A DNA stretch of 6,358 nucleotides. Origin: Gemmatimonadota bacterium (GTDB taxonomy: Bacteria; Latescibacterota; UBA2968; UBA8231). The stretch lies in NCBI GenBank assembly GCA_026706505.1, contig JAPOYQ010000662.1, positions 1-6,358 of the forward strand, in the 5' to 3' direction. Made by a program: the position numbers and the translations under genes. Shown here piece after piece: positions 1-6,358 of the stretch. The notes beneath the pieces were generated by a model that had not been told where the DNA came from, did not search any database, and saw nothing but the letters and a program-made list of their open reading frames with translations. Each line of letters opens with the position of its first letter. Within the stretch, counting starts at the first letter, position 1.

Positions 1-552
1 CGCAAAGAAGGGCCCTATCTCAAACAGTGCCCAAAACAGATTGTCATTCACCGAGACGGACGTGCTTGGCCATCGGAAATTGAAGGGATAGAAGAAGCGT
101 GCCAACAGCTTGCTGTAGAGGGTTATCTCGACGAAGACTGGCAACTCTCAGTCATTGAGATCGCCAAGTCCGCGCCAGCACCGCTGCGATTGTTCGATGT
201 GAAGCCGTCAAGGAGAGGACAAGGAATCTATGTAGAGAATCCGAGGGTTGGTAGTTGGGTACAGACTTCTCCAAATGAGGGCTACATCTGCACCACTGGG
301 CGTCCCTTCCGAATTCTGGGGACGTCCAATCCGTTACACATCCGGAGGATAGCTGGTGAGATGTCCATCGAACACTGCCTGTCAGATGTTTTTTCGCTTA
401 GTTGCCTGACGTGGACTCGGCCAGAAGGCGCGATGCGTCTGCCGATTTCGATCAAACTTTGTGATCGAAGTCTATTCGATGAAGCCGCGGAGTACGATCA
501 AGACGCCATCAAATTTGAAAATGCCCATCTTCAGGAGGAGGTAGCATCATGA
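1..552 (+). CDS. ago: Prokaryotic Argonaute, C-terminal part of PIWI domain (5' end outside window)
   Basis: The frame is open from base 1 to the stop at 550-552 and gives 183 residues, so the gene begins upstream. Argonautes use a short nucleic acid guide to bind, and often cut, a complementary strand; the PIWI domain is the RNase H-like nuclease. Visible PIWI hallmarks, in order: IHRDGR at residues 16-21, whose D19 (bases 55-57) is the third catalytic acid; VIEIAKS at about 50-56; CTTGRPF and GTSNPLHI at about 97-114; and RLPISIKLCDR at about 146-156, whose D155 (463-465) is the fourth catalytic position. The order matches Thermus thermophilus Ago (LLLRDGR, GTPRPLRV, RLPAPLHLADR), recalled from memory. 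Both visible acids are kept, which favours an active, long-A-like protein, but D1, the glutamate finger, MID, PAZ and N domains are not in view. The C-terminus (EEVAS) is polar, unlike the aromatic/hydrophobic end of many pAgos. Family assignment is strong; the subclass is inferred. Confidence 0.9.
   Translation, partial: RKEGPYLKQCPKQIVIHRDGRAWPSEIEGIEEACQQLAVEGYLDEDWQLSVIEIAKSAPAPLRLFDVKPSRRGQGIYVENPRVGSWVQTSPNEGYICTTGRPFRILGTSNPLHIRRIAGEMSIEHCLSDVFSLSCLTWTRPEGAMRLPISIKLCDRSLFDEAAEYDQDAIKFENAHLQEEVAS
533..541 (+). promoter_or_regulatory. Shine-Dalgarno site for the small helical protein
   Basis: AGGAGGAGG lies at the 3' end of the Argonaute gene, 7 nt before the ATG at 549. It is a near-perfect ribosome binding site and fixes that start, even though the two reading frames overlap. 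Confidence 0.8.
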
Positions 553-920
553 GTGATTTGAGTTTGCTGAGGGGGGTTTACTCCGATGTCGAGGCTTATG
601 GCGTACTAATCGACAAAGTAATTGAACGGCTGGGACATGGAAGGACCGGTCCGCCCGATCCAGATCAGAAGAAGCTCGGGCAGCTTCTCATTGATGCCAG
701 CGATCAGGGCCTCGGATCGGAATCTCTTGAGGCACTGATCTTGGACAGTTTGCTCCGTTCAAACACCGGCGAACCCTTCGCAGGTCTAGATTTGAAGCAA
801 CTTGGCGAGCATCTCCTCAGCGGCCAAGTCGATGCTAGCTATCATAGACAGCTAGAGACGCTTGCCCAGAGACTGGAACAGGAACGGGCGGAGATAGCCC
901 GCCGACTCCGGAGACGTTGA
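549..920 (+). CDS. Small all-helical protein of the Argonaute operon, function unknown
   Basis: The protein is 123 residues. The start overlaps the Argonaute stop by 4 nt (ATGA), and a strong ribosome binding site precedes it. I do not recognise a named family. The composition suggests an entirely alpha-helical cytosolic protein with no signal peptide, membrane segment or cysteine. Helices are likely at about 4-28 and 40-70. A GEPFAGLD turn at about 74-81 is followed by a highly charged Glu/Arg helix from about 96 to the end, which finishes in RRLRRR and could form a coiled coil or touch nucleic acid. Its place between the Argonaute and the protease, with overlaps on both sides, suggests an adaptor, an inhibitor of one partner, or a protease substrate. 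These roles are inference. The reading frame itself is well supported by the coupling on both sides. Confidence 0.8.
   Translation: MSDLSLLRGVYSDVEAYGVLIDKVIERLGHGRTGPPDPDQKKLGQLLIDASDQGLGSESLEALILDSLLRSNTGEPFAGLDLKQLGEHLLSGQVDASYHRQLETLAQRLEQERAEIARRLRRR
910..913 (+). promoter_or_regulatory. Shine-Dalgarno site deciding the metalloprotease start
   Basis: GGAG stands 6 nt before the ATG at 920 but only 3 nt before the alternative TTG at 917. This spacing favours ATG 920, which overlaps the upstream TGA by 1 nt (TGATG). Confidence 0.6.
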
Positions 921-2068
921 TGACCGAAGCCTACCTTGTTGGGTCAATCGGCCAATCGCTGGAGCGAATACGGCAACTGCGCCAAATAGTACAGGGACAG
1001 TATGAGAGGGAATACGACGGCTTGCGCCAAATATGTTTGATGCATCTCGACTCCGCACAGGTAGCCCTTCAATGCCTCGCTGAGGAGACGGTCGTCGATA
1101 CAGCACTACAGACCCCTCGACGTGTGAGAGAATTCACACGCATTGTGGGACAGCTCGAAACTGTTGAAAACGTTGGTGCTTTCGCCCTCAGCAGAGTAAG
1201 CCAAGACGATGACTTTCTCAACCGTCTGATCACGGACGTTTGCAGCGAAATCAATTACCGCCTGATTCCTCCAGTCGTCAGTCATATATCTCAGGACTAT
1301 TTCCATGTATACCTCGACTTCAATCTCCTCTGTCTGCCTTTGATGGAGAGTAGGTTTCTCCTGCATCTACCCGATATATATCACGAACTCTGTCATCTAT
1401 TTCATCGGGAGCAGAATGACGATTTGCCGATACTTGAGGAGTATCATGCTGCTTACGAGCGGAGCTTGTTTGAGGTGGTAAGGCACTTTCGCGACGGGAT
1501 CGTAGCTGCCGAGCGCGTAAGCAAACCAGCAGGCAAGATTTACCAACTCCAACTATGGCGCACCTGTTGGGTCAAATTTTGGATGCAGGAATTCTTCTGC
1601 GACCTGTTTGGCGTAATGGTGGCGGGACCGGCCTTTGCTTGGTCTCACTATCACCTTTGCGTCAAACGCGGCGGTGATCCCTTTGAGACCCCTTTGAGAT
1701 TCGTGTCAACGCATCCGGCAGATGATGCACGGATGCGTGCGGTGCTGATGATGCTGGCAGCGACCGGCTTCGATACGGAGGTGAAACGGATCGAAAAGGC
1801 TTGGCAGGATTTCGTTAAGGTTATGGGTTACAATCTAGAGCCTGAATACCGGCAGTGTTACCCAGAGAATTTGCTTTCTGAAATCGTATCAATGGCGCAG
1901 GAAGGCATCGAAGGGACTGGTGTGCGGACGGCAAAGCCGGATGCGCTAACGCGGATTGTCTGTCTTCTCAACTCCGCATGGCAAGAATTTTGGCGGGTGC
2001 CAAAAGACTATCAAGATTGGGAAAAGGTGCAACTTGAAACCTTACGTTCAGCTACAGGACCTTCTTAG
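920..2068 (+). CDS. Cytosolic HExxH zinc metalloprotease (gluzincin, M48-like motifs) of the Argonaute operon
   Basis: The protein is 382 residues when read from ATG 920. HELCH at 155-159 supplies two histidine zinc ligands and the catalytic E156. EFFCD at 224-228 fits the gluzincin ExxxD pattern, with E224 as the likely third ligand. THP at 264-266, followed by R271 and R273, resembles the tHPp...R element downstream of the ligand in M48 peptidases. The order HExxH, ExxxD, HP...R is convincing for an active peptidase fold. Unlike HtpX or Ste24 I see no transmembrane segments and no signal peptide, so it should be cytosolic. Residues 1-140 are mostly helical and could be a sensor or partner-binding part; about 285-382 is a helical tail rich in Trp and Glu. 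Its 1-nt overlap with the preceding gene places it in the Argonaute operon. The likely role is a defence effector or a maturation protease. The peptidase call is confident; target and exact family are unknown. Confidence 0.82.
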   Translation: MTEAYLVGSIGQSLERIRQLRQIVQGQYEREYDGLRQICLMHLDSAQVALQCLAEETVVDTALQTPRRVREFTRIVGQLETVENVGAFALSRVSQDDDFLNRLITDVCSEINYRLIPPVVSHISQDYFHVYLDFNLLCLPLMESRFLLHLPDIYHELCHLFHREQNDDLPILEEYHAAYERSLFEVVRHFRDGIVAAERVSKPAGKIYQLQLWRTCWVKFWMQEFFCDLFGVMVAGPAFAWSHYHLCVKRGGDPFETPLRFVSTHPADDARMRAVLMMLAATGFDTEVKRIEKAWQDFVKVMGYNLEPEYRQCYPENLLSEIVSMAQEGIEGTGVRTAKPDALTRIVCLLNSAWQEFWRVPKDYQDWEKVQLETLRSATGPS

Positions 2069-2095: not shown

Positions 2096-2137
2096 GTCGC
2101 CGCCGACCCAACTAAAAAAGCTTAGGCCGACGGCGAC
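2096..2137 (-). terminator. Imperfect hairpin between converging genes; possible 3'-end structure of the M16 transcript
   Basis: Arms 2096-2108 and 2125-2137 pair over 13 positions around a 16-nt loop. In plus-strand RNA two positions are C-A mismatches. In minus-strand RNA the same two become G-U pairs, so all 13 positions pair. It starts about 33 nt past the stop of the M16 gene. No U tract follows it on either strand, so it is not a standard intrinsic terminator. It may instead protect the 3' end or act with Rho. The remaining intergenic bases (2069-2095 and 2138-2170) hold nothing else I can support. Confidence 0.4.
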
Positions 2138-2170: not shown

Positions 2171-5038
2171 CTACTCTTCTCCCGCCTCGCCCCCCTCCTC
2201 CTCCGGATAGAGCACCACCCGCACATAGCGGTCCATGTTGAAATACTTCTGCGCTGACTGCTGCACTGCATCCACCGTCAGCGAATCGACCAACGCTGGA
2301 TACTGAGTCAGCAGCCGTGGATCGACCCCGTTGAAGTCGAGCGATGCCAGAGACCCGACCCAGAAGCTGTTTTCCTTGAGGTCTGTCTCGCGCTGGCGCT
2401 TGCGCATTTCCTTGACCTTATCGACGTAGAGGTCGGTGGTGCCGACGGTTTTTAGGCTGTCGATCTGCTCAAAGATTACTTGCGTCAGTTCTTCGACGCG
2501 ATCGGGATCGCTGCCGAAGGAGATGGAGATGCGGTACTCCTCGTCCGGGTAGTGCGAGCCGCTGCTGCTGACCCATACCCCATAGGTGCCGCCCAAGTCC
2601 TCGCGCAACACCTCGCGCAGCTTGATTTCCAGCACGGAGGTCATGGCCCTCAGTTCGAGGTTGTTTTTCCAGCCATCGTATTCAAAGGGGCCGGTGAAAA
2701 TCATCTGTGATCGGCTCTTGGGTTCAATACCGCGATAGACCGCCTTGTCGATCACGCCCTCCGGGGGCTCGATGCCGACGTCGCGCCAAGTCTCCTCCCG
2801 TCCCGTGGTCGGCAAGCCGCCCAAATAAGTGCGCACCAGCGGCTCTATACCTTCGAGGGTGAAGTTGCCGACGAAGAAAAAGGAGAAGTCGCTGGCGTCG
2901 GCAAAGCGATCTTGGTACACGGCCATAGACGTGGCCAAATCCATCTCGTCGAGCAACTCCAGCGACCAGGGGCGCGCCCGGTGGTGGTACTGCGCCATGG
3001 TGACCGAAATGGTGTCGCTGAAAGCTGTCTCTGGGCGCGCGCTGCGATTTTGGATGGAGCCTCTCATAAGTGTCTGATAGGCTTGGAAGGCCGTGCTATC
3101 CTGTCGCGGCGCGGTAAAGAAGGCGTAGATCAGCTCGAACATGGTCTGAATATCTTCGGGCGAGGCCGAGCCAGAAACGCCCTCCTGCAAGCTGCTGATC
3201 CACGGCGATACCCGCACCACTTTGCCGGCCAGTTTCTTCTCTAGTTCGATCTTGTTAAACGGCCCCACGCCGCCCTCGCTCACCACTGAGGTCGCCGTCG
3301 AAGCTGCCACGTAGTCGGCGTCGGGGATCAGCGAGTGCCCGCCGGGGCTATAGGCTTGGAAGAGGATCTCATCGTTTTTGAAGTCCGTCGGCTTCAAGCA
3401 CACGCGGATGCCGTTGGAGAGCGTCCACCAAGTCACGCCGATATCGGGGATTTCGCTGCGTTCGACGATGTCAGCCGGGGCTGGCATTTGCGCCACGAGC
3501 GGCTCGTCGGATACCTCGTCGGCGTACGGCGCGATCTCCTGCTGCGCCGCCTTGGCGAAGATCGCCAGCAGATCTTGCTCGGTGGGAACGGCAATGCCCT
3601 CTTGCTCAGGTGCCTCCACGGTGATTACCCGGTTTTTTTCGCTCGTCCACTCGCTGGCCAGCGCATTGACCTCCTCTAGTGCAATGCCAGGGACCAGTTC
3701 TTGGTAGAGTTCGTACTCCTTGGCAATGCCGGGGATGGCTTCGTCAGTCAGCAGGTGGCGCACGTATTCGGAGGCAAAACCGCTCGACTGTTGTTTGTCG
3801 CGCTCGCGGTAGGACTGCTCCATGCTGCGCAGCATTTCCTTTTTCTCGCGCGCTAGCTCAGAAGCAGTAAAGCCGTGTTCCCGCACTCTCGCTGCTTCAA
3901 TTAGCAGGGCCTCAAGCCCGGCGTCGAAACCGTTGTTTTGCACCGCAGCGCCGAGGATGAAAAACTCCTTGGAGCGCAGCCAACGCCCTTGGCCCGAGTA
4001 AGCCCCTAAAAAGGGCGGCTCGGGGAGCTTGGTCAGTTCGTGCAGACGCTGGTTTAACATCTGGTGATAGAGGGCCTCAATCAGCGAGCGGCGGTAGGTG
4101 CTCACCGTCCCTTGGGGCCGCACGTCCATTTTGTAGTAGATGCTGACGCTGTTGTATGTAGCTTCTGGGTCGGTGGTAATGGCGAAGAGCGTCTCTTCGT
4201 GGTCGGGCACGGGGAACACCGTGCGTTCGGGGGGATTTTCTGCCACGGGGATGCGTGCAAAATACTCCTGCACCAGTGCCTCTACCTCCGCTGGCTCAAT
4301 GTCGCCGACGGCCACAAAACCCATTAGATCGGGCCGGTACCAAGTGCGGTAAAAGCGGCGCAGATCTTCGTGCTGAAAGGTATCGAGCACGGCCTTCTGG
4401 CCGATGGGCAGGCGCACGGCGTAGCGCGAATCCTTCAGGAGAATGGGTATTTGCTCGTCGAACATGCGCTGCTGAGCGCCACGCCGCAGCCGCCACTCTT
4501 CGACGACCACGCCCCTTTCCTTGTCGATTTCCTCGGACTCAAAGCTTATCTGGTGCGCCCAGTCCTCCAAGATTTGGAAGGCCGTTTCCACCACTTCGGT
4601 GCTATCGGTGGGCACGGTCAGCATGTACACGGTCTCGTCGAAGCTGGTATAGGCATTGAGATCCGGCCCAAAGCGCATGCCGATTAGCTCCAGATAATCC
4701 ACCAACTCCTGCTTGGCGAAGTTTTTGGTGCCATTGAAGGCCATGTGCTCGGCAAAGTGCGCCAGCCCCTGTTGGTTTTCGTCCTCCAACACCGAGCCGG
4801 CATCGACCACCAGCCGCAGCTCGACTCGGTTCTCGGGCTTTTGGTTTTTGCGGATGACATAGCGCAAGCCGTTGTCTAGCTGGCCGACGGCCACCAGCGA
4901 GTCAATGGGCAGCTTTGGATCCTCTAGCTTCTCGGTCGTCTCCTCCATCGCCGCCTGTTGCACGGTCGTCGGCGACGTGCTGACGCAGGCGTACAGTAGT
5001 ACTGGCAGCACAGCGAACAGCAGTAAAACTCGTCTCAT
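2171..5038 (-). CDS. M16 family zinc metallopeptidase, two-repeat pitrilysin/PqqL-like lipoprotein
   Basis: The protein is 955 residues when started at 5038, a typical length for one-chain bacterial M16 enzymes. These are clam-shaped peptidases that cut short peptides. The start was chosen because MRRVLLLFAVLPVLLYAC is a lipoprotein signal with lipobox LYAC (Cys18) and an AGGAG lies 6 nt upstream. The in-frame ATG at 5080 would add 14 polar residues before the signal. HFAEH at 94-98 is the inverted zinc motif HxxEH, with E97 as catalytic base. ERGVVVEEW at 174-182 holds the further acids, E181 being the likely third ligand. A first M16_C domain spans about 225-410. The second half (about 535-690 and 700-880) repeats the fold without HxxEH, as expected for the inactive half, and keeps GGTYGV at about 816. 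It should sit in the periplasm on a lipid anchor. The tail ends in an acidic Glu/Gly stretch. Substrate unknown. Confidence 0.93.
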   Translation of the reverse strand: MRRVLLLFAVLPVLLYACVSTSPTTVQQAAMEETTEKLEDPKLPIDSLVAVGQLDNGLRYVIRKNQKPENRVELRLVVDAGSVLEDENQQGLAHFAEHMAFNGTKNFAKQELVDYLELIGMRFGPDLNAYTSFDETVYMLTVPTDSTEVVETAFQILEDWAHQISFESEEIDKERGVVVEEWRLRRGAQQRMFDEQIPILLKDSRYAVRLPIGQKAVLDTFQHEDLRRFYRTWYRPDLMGFVAVGDIEPAEVEALVQEYFARIPVAENPPERTVFPVPDHEETLFAITTDPEATYNSVSIYYKMDVRPQGTVSTYRRSLIEALYHQMLNQRLHELTKLPEPPFLGAYSGQGRWLRSKEFFILGAAVQNNGFDAGLEALLIEAARVREHGFTASELAREKKEMLRSMEQSYRERDKQQSSGFASEYVRHLLTDEAIPGIAKEYELYQELVPGIALEEVNALASEWTSEKNRVITVEAPEQEGIAVPTEQDLLAIFAKAAQQEIAPYADEVSDEPLVAQMPAPADIVERSEIPDIGVTWWTLSNGIRVCLKPTDFKNDEILFQAYSPGGHSLIPDADYVAASTATSVVSEGGVGPFNKIELEKKLAGKVVRVSPWISSLQEGVSGSASPEDIQTMFELIYAFFTAPRQDSTAFQAYQTLMRGSIQNRSARPETAFSDTISVTMAQYHHRARPWSLELLDEMDLATSMAVYQDRFADASDFSFFFVGNFTLEGIEPLVRTYLGGLPTTGREETWRDVGIEPPEGVIDKAVYRGIEPKSRSQMIFTGPFEYDGWKNNLELRAMTSVLEIKLREVLREDLGGTYGVWVSSSGSHYPDEEYRISISFGSDPDRVEELTQVIFEQIDSLKTVGTTDLYVDKVKEMRKRQRETDLKENSFWVGSLASLDFNGVDPRLLTQYPALVDSLTVDAVQQSAQKYFNMDRYVRVVLYPEEEGGEAGEE

Positions 5039-5044
5039 TGATGA

Positions 5045-5049
5045 CTCCT
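5045..5049 (-). promoter_or_regulatory. Shine-Dalgarno site of the M16 lipoprotein gene
   Basis: Read on the minus strand this is AGGAG, 6 nt before the ATG at 5038. It decides between that start and the longer in-frame start at 5080, which has no comparable site. Confidence 0.75.
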
Positions 5050-5052
5050 GTT

Positions 5053-5086
5053 TTGATTGGTCAATAGCCGGTTGATCCATTCAACC
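5053..5086. repeat. Two adjacent palindromes in the M16 gene leader
   Basis: TTGA-N4-TCAA lies at 5053-5064. GGTTGA-N5-TCAACC lies at 5070-5086 and contains TTGA-N5-TCAA at 5072-5084. Their centres are about 19-20 nt apart, close to two helical turns. They fall between the candidate promoter and the ribosome binding site, so they could be a paired operator or a small leader hairpin. The function is inferred from position only. Confidence 0.4.
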
Positions 5087-5099
5087 AGCGGTCTGTTAT

Positions 5100-5128
5100 A
5101 TAATAGAAATATCTCTGTGATTTGTCTC
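5100..5128 (-). promoter_or_regulatory. Candidate sigma70-type promoter of the M16 gene
   Basis: On the minus strand, TATTAT (5100-5105, 5 of 6 matches to TATAAT) follows GAGACA (5123-5128, 4 of 6 to TTGACA) with a 17-nt spacer. The -35 box overlaps the kinase stop codon. The predicted transcript would start near 5093 and carry a leader of about 55 nt. It stands out against the GC-rich surroundings, but its activity is unproven. Confidence 0.4.
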
Positions 5129-6358
5129 ATTGACGCTTGATACTGCCGAATGTTTCACGATTGGAGGCCACTGGAAACGCTGCACTGGCCTCGGCAATGG
5201 AGCCAAACGCGCCGTCAGCCACAGCGGCACACAACGCGGCACCGACGGCGGCCTCTTCGCCGTGTGCCCCTATGTGCAGCGGCATAGCGAACTCCGCTTC
5301 CAGCGCCGCTCGCAGTACGGGATTTAGCTTGATGCCGTTGCCTGCGCCAACCAGCTTGGAGCGCGCGCCACCGCCCAGTAGGATGGCCTCGCGATACGAG
5401 TCGGCCAACTCGACGGCCATGCCTTCCAACAGCGCGCGCGTTAGATGCCCGGCCGTCAGCGTCGCAGTAGTTAGCTCGCGGAAGGCGGCTTTGGCGCGCG
5501 GTCTGCTGCGTGACCCGGAAAACAGCGGGTCGGCGCGCACGCCCTCGGCACCGGCCGGTACGTCAGCCGCTAATGATACGAGCCGCTCGTAGAGGGCCTC
5601 GCTGTCGGGTTGGACATCGGCGAGGGTTTGGATGGCGTCGGCGAAGAAATCGCGCAGCGTCCTGAACGTCCGCCCGCCGACGGCCCCCACGCCCGCCAGC
5701 AGATAGCCGCGCTGGATATAGGGACGCAGTTCGAGCGAGCCGCGCGGCAATGGAGCTTCGATATGCAGGGCCGCTTGTCCGCCGGTGCCGACATTGACGG
5801 CCACGGTGTTGGCGTAATCGGTGACCGTACCGGCAAAGCTGCACTGGTGATCACCGGACGCCACGGCGACGGGCAGGCCCACTGGTACGCCGAGCTTTTG
5901 GGCCATTGCTGGGGTCAGGGGACCGGCCATGGTACAAGATTCGACCAGTTCGGGAAACAGCGACTGGTCTAGGCCGAGATCGGCGATAAGCTCGTCTGCC
6001 CAAGCTTGTTTGGTCACGTCATAGACGCCCCAGCCGAGCGCATCTGTGGGATCGACCACCGGCCGTTTGCCTACCAGCCGCGACACCACAAACTCAGGAG
6101 CCGCTGTGCCGCTGACGCCGCTGGGAAGTTGATTGTTGGCTTGCAGCCAAAACAGGTGCGGCGCGGCGTGGCCAGCCACGATAGGGCAGCCGGTATTGGC
6201 AAAGGCGGGCATTTCTCCCTCAGTGGTGATCGAACCCCCGCGCTGGGCCATGGCGTCTAAGTAGCTGTGCTGCTGGCCCGGTAGGAGTTCTTGGGCGCGC
6301 TGATCCTGCCAGGAGAAATAAGGTCCTACGACTTTGAGCGCGGCGTCGAGAAGCTGCA
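5127..6358 (-). CDS. FGGY family carbohydrate kinase, probably sedoheptulokinase-like (5' end outside window)
   Basis: The frame stays open to the window edge, so the ATG at 6251 is internal and 410 codons including the stop (409 residues) are visible. FGGY kinases move the gamma-phosphate of ATP to a sugar. Just inside the edge is WQDQRA (partial residues 16-21), the W-x-D-x-R substrate-site motif of the N-terminal domain. SGDHQCS at about 167-173 carries the catalytic aspartate D169 (5850-5852). NVGTGGQ at about 188-194 is the phosphate-binding turn, LLGGGARS at about 326-333 the adenosine motif, and EEAAVGAAL at about 367-375 the C-terminal family signature. GDxQCS and the GGG...AAVGAAL tail resemble animal sedoheptulokinase, which would feed sedoheptulose 7-phosphate to the pentose phosphate pathway; another sugar is possible. 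The DxGTT phosphate loop is not in view. The codons are GC-rich, as in the M16 gene 88 nt downstream, with no evident functional tie between them. Confidence 0.87.
   Translation of the reverse strand, partial: QLLDAALKVVGPYFSWQDQRAQELLPGQQHSYLDAMAQRGGSITTEGEMPAFANTGCPIVAGHAAPHLFWLQANNQLPSGVSGTAAPEFVVSRLVGKRPVVDPTDALGWGVYDVTKQAWADELIADLGLDQSLFPELVESCTMAGPLTPAMAQKLGVPVGLPVAVASGDHQCSFAGTVTDYANTVAVNVGTGGQAALHIEAPLPRGSLELRPYIQRGYLLAGVGAVGGRTFRTLRDFFADAIQTLADVQPDSEALYERLVSLAADVPAGAEGVRADPLFSGSRSRPRAKAAFRELTTATLTAGHLTRALLEGMAVELADSYREAILLGGGARSKLVGAGNGIKLNPVLRAALEAEFAMPLHIGAHGEEAAVGAALCAAVADGAFGSIAEASAAFPVASNRETFGSIKRQ

Follow-up and report, generated by a model that had tools for sequence, protein, structure and literature searches.

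At the start of a 6,358-nt contig from a Gemmatimonadota bacterium (JAPOYQ010000662.1, assembly GCA_026706505.1), the gene of a prokaryotic Argonaute (pAgo) is followed by genes for a small protein and a predicted metalloprotease, and comparisons with other genomes and with plasmids support that the three form a conserved unit. This whole stretch, hereafter the window, opens inside the pAgo gene. By its sequence, the Argonaute belongs to the PliAgo group of DNA-guided RNA-cutting (D-R) pAgos. We propose, with roughly even confidence, that the small protein and the protease constitute a portable output module, gated here by an RNA-sensing D-R pAgo. A preliminary description of this DNA had reported three reading frames overlapping by 4 nt and 1 nt, and had read them as an operon that could couple nucleic acid recognition to proteolysis. 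The observation is confirmed, with the frames on the + strand at 1-552, 549-920 and 920-2068, and the interpretation is partly supported. The main features are:

1..552, + strand: end of a long pAgo from the D-R (PliAgo) group: last 183 residues, including the two catalytic Asp that fall in the window; open at the window start
55..57, + strand: D19 (fragment numbering), catalytic Asp at the third position of the DEDD tetrad, placed by alignment and by spacing to PliAgo D626
463..465, + strand: D155 (fragment numbering), catalytic Asp at the fourth position of the DEDD tetrad, placed by alignment and by spacing to PliAgo D762
549..920, + strand: small five-helix protein of 123 residues, ATG start; steady neighbour directly upstream of the protease
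920..2068, + strand: predicted gluzincin-like metalloprotease of 382 residues, ATG at 920
1382..1396, + strand: predicted zinc-binding and catalytic motif HELCH, residues 155-159, with E156; H, E and H the same in all aligned sequences (37/37 and 18/18)
1589..1603, + strand: motif EFFCD (E224, D228), presumed to supply the third zinc ligand; E and D kept without exception (37/37 and 18/18)
1712..1732, + strand: motif HPADDAR (H265, P266, D268, R271); invariant in 37/37 and 18/18, changed in some distant members

In the list of open reading frames (ORFs), the protease frame opens with a TTG at 917, the codon before the ATG at 920; we retained the ATG because the alignment of homologues begins there.

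A genome scan with an alignment of the protease yielded 16 loci in many phyla. The small gene lies directly upstream of the protease gene in all 16, and a pAgo gene precedes the small gene in 13 of them (intact in 11, split in L001 and cut by the contig end in L011). Genes for an XRE-type helix-turn-helix (HTH) protein and a PD-(D/E)XK nuclease were found upstream of the pAgo gene, by Pfam matches in the four loci tested and by similarity in others, and the HTH gene heads the operon in all 14 genome loci long enough to include its position, L009 and L011 being cut. The order in relatives is thus HTH, nuclease, pAgo, small protein and protease, and the full unit therefore comprises five genes. 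The three genes of the supposed three-gene operon are real and linked, but they are only part of it; the HTH and nuclease genes would fall outside the window because it opens inside the pAgo gene. The 4-nt overlap between the small gene and the frame upstream of it recurs in 17 of 20 relatives; in L019, L020 and L021, the two frames are separated by 3, 20 and 11 nt, respectively. In L001, the pAgo is encoded in two frames, and the operon has an IS66-type transposase gene on one side and a shorter, 96%-identical copy on the other.

Among 72,556 plasmids, five were matched by the protease query. A full-length pAgo query gave nine plasmid records, and the five matched over at least 80% of the query were the same ones; the remaining four are haloarchaeal, have PIWI matches over 30% of the query and lie outside the gene-order count. 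All five plasmids have the order nuclease, pAgo, small protein, protease. In Runella pRUNSL03, the pAgo (WP_013921749.1) bears the accession given for RslAgo, and the small and protease genes are directly downstream of it. An HTH gene is present in the Runella and Rhizobium plasmids (2/5), and its place is taken by genes for a sigma-70 factor and a protein of ~180 residues in those of Spirosoma and Emticicia, whose operons, judged by gene content, we assign to the PnyAgo type. The cyanobacterial plasmid (L020) gave no HTH match and no sigma factor gene upstream of its operon. As HTH-type and sigma-type plasmids both carry the pair of small and protease genes, the pair is present in both D-R operon types. 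With a member of the sigma group as the query, the protease and the pAgo again retrieved the same five plasmids.

We also searched for pAgos in the genomes of three phyla, namely those of G012 (392 genomes), G008 (64) and G005 (301). Nine genomes were matched: the seeds G012 and G008, four with full-length matches (G706, G839, G850 and G968) and three with weak partial ones (G673, G972 and G1050). All five genes are present, in order, in the four non-seed genomes with full-length matches. Full-length D-R-type pAgos besides the seeds are thus accompanied by the small and protease genes in 9/9 cases, two of them sigma-factor operons, the count being made up of these four genomes and of the five plasmids that the protease query also matches. 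No small or protease gene was found within 16 kb of the pAgos of G972 and G1050, which belong to other clades; G673 was examined over a 3.2-kb stretch. The phylum of G012 was covered by the pAgo query and the class of G010 by the protease query, reciprocity being one-sided in both. Pairwise sequence distances across the 16 loci correlate at 0.973 for pAgo and protease, 0.921 for pAgo and small protein and 0.941 for small protein and protease, values that 0/5000 permutations equalled; nuclease and protease correlate at 0.961 over 15 loci. The common order in all nine cases and the correlations of 0.92-0.97 support the three genes as a conserved unit, in line with the preliminary description.

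The two downstream genes might alternatively be passengers, co-transferred in defence islands and sharing no function with the pAgo. Many defence families are present in the flanks, as the preliminary description had led one to look for: with no background control, type I restriction, PglX, Hachiman HamB, ThiF and Prok-E2 genes occur among 134 ORFs flanking the genome loci (at least 100 residues, within 5 kb, those above 1300 residues dropped; the results are families, not loci), and CBASS phospholipase, multiubiquitin/ThiF and restriction genes flank the plasmid operons. The existence of the pair without a pAgo, described below, would also fit co-transfer. Against it stand the fixed gene order, the 4-nt overlap in 17/20 loci, the presence of the pair in 9/9 cases found through the pAgo and its absence from the 16-kb surroundings of the other-clade pAgos, together with the pAgo-protease correlation of 0.97. 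We regard co-transfer as the least probable of the explanations considered here, and as very improbable in itself. Both Bacteroidota operons (L017 and L019) have multiubiquitin, ThiF and DUF6527 genes next to them, and ThiF and prokaryotic E2 genes recur in the flanks of the genome loci.

The window pAgo fragment matches the PADLOC pAgo_II model (E 6.5e-79), and its match to Pfam Piwi (E 1.2e-4) is under the cutoff of that model. The nearest solved pAgo is PliAgo (7r8f; E 2.8e-56). The full-length pAgo of L008, 78% identical to the window fragment, matches PliAgo with an E value of 1e-211. The D19-D155 spacing of 136 residues equals that of D626 and D762 in PliAgo, and the full DEDD tetrad is present in 16/16 aligned relatives, as are both residues visible in the window. 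The MID domain, with the RHSY pocket that marks the PliAgo group, would lie outside the window. The text of PMC9360449 (Lisitskaya et al. 2022) describes two groups of D-R pAgos, those of PliAgo and PnyAgo, with genes for a PD-(D/E)XK nuclease and an HTH protein upstream of the PliAgo-group pAgo, and for a nuclease and a sigma-70 factor in the PnyAgo group; it also reports experiments in which RslAgo uses a DNA guide and an RNA target. By analogy with RslAgo, the window pAgo probably recognizes RNA complementary to short DNA guides, which narrows the nucleic acid recognition first proposed to that of RNA.

The protease was aligned in 37 rows (the window, 26 of 120 proteins among the matches listed and 10 of the 16 loci) and in 18 rows, 13 of which are common to the former and the others being the five plasmids. 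H155, E156, H159, E224, C227, D228, H265, P266, D268 and R271 are invariant in both alignments, at identities down to 22-25%. Of nine members fetched later, eight keep HExxH and ExxxD, and the ninth, L064, is a fragment that lacks the HExxH motif. Residue 227 is no longer Cys in L048, L062 and L063, and the HPxD..R motif is altered in L042 and L064 and was not seen in L065. The presumed zinc site is thus kept across members, which points to selection for catalysis.

Residues 94-330 of the window protease align over 181-182 residues with gluzincins such as neprilysin and Zmp1, which we take to be members of family M13. They have in common with it an HExxH motif followed 65 residues on by ExxxD, and it is from gluzincins that we assume the ligand role of EFFCD. 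No PADLOC, Pfam or NCBIfam model matches the window protease at E <= 1. With 18 diverse proteases of the family, no Pfam or NCBIfam peptidase family, M48, M13 and M78 included, was matched at E <= 1, and scattered matches of single members to non-peptidase families had E values of at least 0.004. A sequence-profile search of the PDB returned helical chance matches alone (best E 0.2). Assignment to M48, suggested by the ExxxD and HP..R motifs that we presume to be linked to that family, was not confirmed. L023-L026 belong to a distant unannotated family of proteins of 416-447 residues with HExxH/ExxxD-like motifs; of 7998 candidates scored with a 444-residue query from L023, 1375 reached E <= 0.001. 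Profile comparison relates this family to residues 214-337 of the window protease (97.5%, E 7e-12). This kinship gives the protease no family name, because the four members tested had no Pfam match at E <= 0.1. Three scans of viral contigs (two with the protease, A1 and A6, and one with the pAgo, A5) found no relative, and a phage collection no protease match, an absence that holds at the sensitivity of these scans, as they used a few short patterns or tblastn.

The window small protein likewise has no PADLOC, Pfam or NCBIfam match at E <= 1 and no fold match at E <= 0.001, and a PDB profile search gave no E value below 0.003, its best two matches being designed TIM barrels. The preliminary description had found the combination unlike any pAgo system it recognized; this stands for the small protein and the protease, for which no model was found, but not for the pAgo, which falls within a published group. 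The small gene is a steadier neighbour of the protease gene (16/16) than is the pAgo (13/16), and also accompanies it in L062, L063 and L065, which have no pAgo. In G915, G856 and G853, a gene of the small family was detected directly upstream of the protease gene (E 6.7e-4, 9.1e-8 and 2.5e-4, respectively). This steadiness would suit a toxin-antitoxin-like pair, in which the protease is a growth-arresting toxin inhibited by the small protein, with a pAgo or a STAND protein as the guard that sets the protease free upon disturbance. However, neither the fold search nor the PDB profile search linked the small protein to a known inhibitor, and toxicity is purely hypothetical; we consider such a pair quite unlikely.

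Several findings weigh against an exclusive partnership with the pAgo. Three of the 16 protease loci (L004, L005 and L007) lack a pAgo gene and retain the HTH, small and protease genes, and the rest of these draft genomes gave no pAgo match either. L004 and L007, both from metagenome-assembled genomes of Gemmatimonadota, share an in-frame deletion that leaves a 109-residue remnant, with the nuclease N-terminus joined to the pAgo C-terminus (9310-9639, + strand); being ~99% identical over the operon and having the same remnant, they count as one event. In L005, neither nuclease nor pAgo was found. In G828 (L042, 7873-11056, - strand), a STAND NTPase gene (NB-ARC E 2.5e-6, nSTAND4 E 3.8e-7), its 5' part apparently cut by a transposase gene, is followed by a 150-residue ORF and a gluzincin of the same family, possibly a STAND-protease defence operon.

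The protease occurs in 6 of 64 genomes in the phylum of G008, three with a pAgo, the two pAgo-deleted ones (G004 and G007) and G828, and in 6 of 301 in the phylum of G005, namely G968 with a pAgo, the pAgo-deleted G005, and G915, G856, G1011 and G853 without one, only fragments being seen in G1011. Among 385 genomes in the class of G010, the only full-length match was the seed, and four others were weak and partial, to a distant family. In a quick FastTree tree, with no support values shown, G915 and G856 nest in the D-R clade beside the pAgo-bearing G968, and G828 and G853 branch outside. We therefore rejected an exclusive partnership of pAgo and protease, given the homologues without a pAgo in G915, G856 and G853, the fragments in G1011 and the STAND gene in G828. 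The arrangement is no single occurrence, but the more distant protease homologues seen lie away from Argonautes, one of them behind a STAND NTPase. The pair persists without the pAgo; the small and protease genes are therefore the tighter unit, which looks portable. As judged by eye from the sequence starts, the convergent neighbours of L062 and L063 look alike, which hints that the chromosomal setting is fixed; Pfam gave no match for the neighbours of L063.

These loci also bear on two further explanations. The protease might mature the PD-(D/E)XK nuclease, as partner proteases do in Hachiman/AVAST. The complete D-R operons examined contain both genes, nuclease and protease, and the distances of the two correlate (r = 0.961, 15 loci), but there is no nuclease match in G828, L062, L063, L065 or L005, the nuclease is cut down in L004/L007, and the published nuclease-protease pairs use trypsin-like proteases. 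Such maturation appears very unlikely.

The other explanation is an expression switch. ImmA and IrrE cleave the repressors ImmR and DdrO. The protease might similarly cleave the regulator of its own operon, an XRE-type HTH repressor or the sigma-adjacent protein, so that the operon is turned on only upon invasion; it would then regulate supply, and not be the output of the pAgo. An HTH gene heads the operon in 14/14 genome loci that extend to it, 2/5 plasmids and 4/4 further genomes, two plasmids have the sigma-70 factor and the ~180-residue protein, and the pAgo-less L004, L005 and L007 keep the HTH, small and protease genes. In Craspase, according to the text of PMC10028731, the protease is switched on by a guided RNA nuclease, and its substrate is an inhibitor of a sigma factor. 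On the other side, L020 has neither an HTH match nor a sigma factor gene upstream, the HTH profile finds no match in the stretches fetched from G828, G915, G856 and G853, there is no M78/ImmA-IrrE (IrrE_N-like) Pfam match at E <= 1, and a pure regulator of the pAgo should not persist after its loss. On balance, we judge a switch of this kind unlikely.

In the portable-module reading that we prefer, the D-R pAgo would take up short DNA guides, and find and cut complementary RNA, as RslAgo leads us to expect. The small protein would keep the protease inactive or dock it on its sensor, and a guide-loaded pAgo on its RNA target would fire the protease, which might then cleave a small number of proteins, perhaps only one. 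Within the operon, the HTH repressor, the nuclease and, in the sigma variant, the ~180-residue protein beside the sigma factor are candidate substrates, and the target could equally well come from the host or a phage. Besides RNA slicing, the result might be a transcriptional alarm or the arrest of the infected cell. In G828, the sensor is perhaps the STAND ATPase instead of a pAgo. A more specific version, in which the DNA guides are made from the invader, the pAgo recognizes invader transcripts and, through the small adaptor, a gluzincin of a new family cleaves a transcription regulator, would make the system an independently evolved counterpart of Craspase, with its module also wired to STAND sensors; we consider it possible, on the doubtful side. 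What the sequences show is the operon and its conservation, the catalytic residues kept in both pAgo and protease, and a pair that also exists without the pAgo; physical coupling, proteolysis itself, its activation by the pAgo, the substrate and the defence role are what we infer.

Downstream of the protease gene, ~30 nt past its stop, we noted by eye a possible operon terminator:

2096..2137, + strand: imperfect inverted repeat

It was absent from the output of a promoter and terminator scan of positions 1-2400, which gave three promoter-like sites against 1.3 expected and two terminator-like sites against 1.8 expected. A two-domain M16 insulinase-like peptidase, probably ordinary, is encoded at 2171-5080 (- strand), convergent with the operon and outside it, and an FGGY-family carbohydrate kinase at 5127-6356 (- strand), open at the window end.

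As the D-R pAgo group has already been published, the new part here is the downstream small-protease pair. The text of PMC9360449 names the same upstream genes as those of our relatives, a PD-(D/E)XK nuclease and an HTH protein or sigma factor, but neither a small protein nor a protease. The words 'protease' and 'peptidase' each occur 0 times in it, figures and supplements lying outside this count (Fig. 1b may show both genes unlabelled), and both are likewise absent from the text of a 2018 survey of pAgo operons (PMC6299218). A published link between a pAgo and a metalloprotease was not found among the matches listed, in titles and the starts of abstracts, with figures, supplements and most subscription journals outside that scope. 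That D-R Argonautes slice RNA is established biochemically, but the text of PMC9360449 leaves open their biological role. With a conserved metalloprotease and its constant small partner in D-R operons, including the RslAgo plasmid, which is a laboratory-accessible case, this role becomes a direct question: is proteolysis switched on when the target RNA is recognized? A positive answer would mean that programmable proteases triggered by RNA, and using DNA guides, exist outside CRISPR.

Among known systems, the Long-B pAgo systems BPAN, BPAS and BPAM also combine a long pAgo with genes for associated effectors, but as presented in the text of PMC10620215 their pAgos are catalytically inactive and their effectors are nucleases, Sir2 or membrane proteins, whereas the group of the window pAgo keeps the complete DEDD tetrad and is accompanied by a protease. 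The pairs of ImmA/IrrE and their repressors differ by their M78 domain, not matched here (Pfam, E <= 1); the HTH gene present in our relatives might encode a corresponding repressor. Hachiman/AVAST, from the text of PMC12799240, similarly provides a defence operon with a nuclease and a protease; there, a trypsin-like protease matures a nuclease proenzyme under another sensor, whereas the D-R operons encode an HExxH protein. The nearest working analogue appears to be the type III-E Craspase/CASP system (Cas7-11, Csx29, Csx30 and CASP-sigma), as far as the text of PMC10028731 describes it, the likeness being one of how the systems would work. Both combine a guided RNA-cutting nuclease with a protease and, in most cases for the D-R operons, a transcription regulator beside them, and the sigma variant also shares a sigma factor with an adjacent small protein; the parts differ, Cas7-11 and a CHAT protease in Craspase corresponding to a pAgo and an HExxH protein in the D-R operons.

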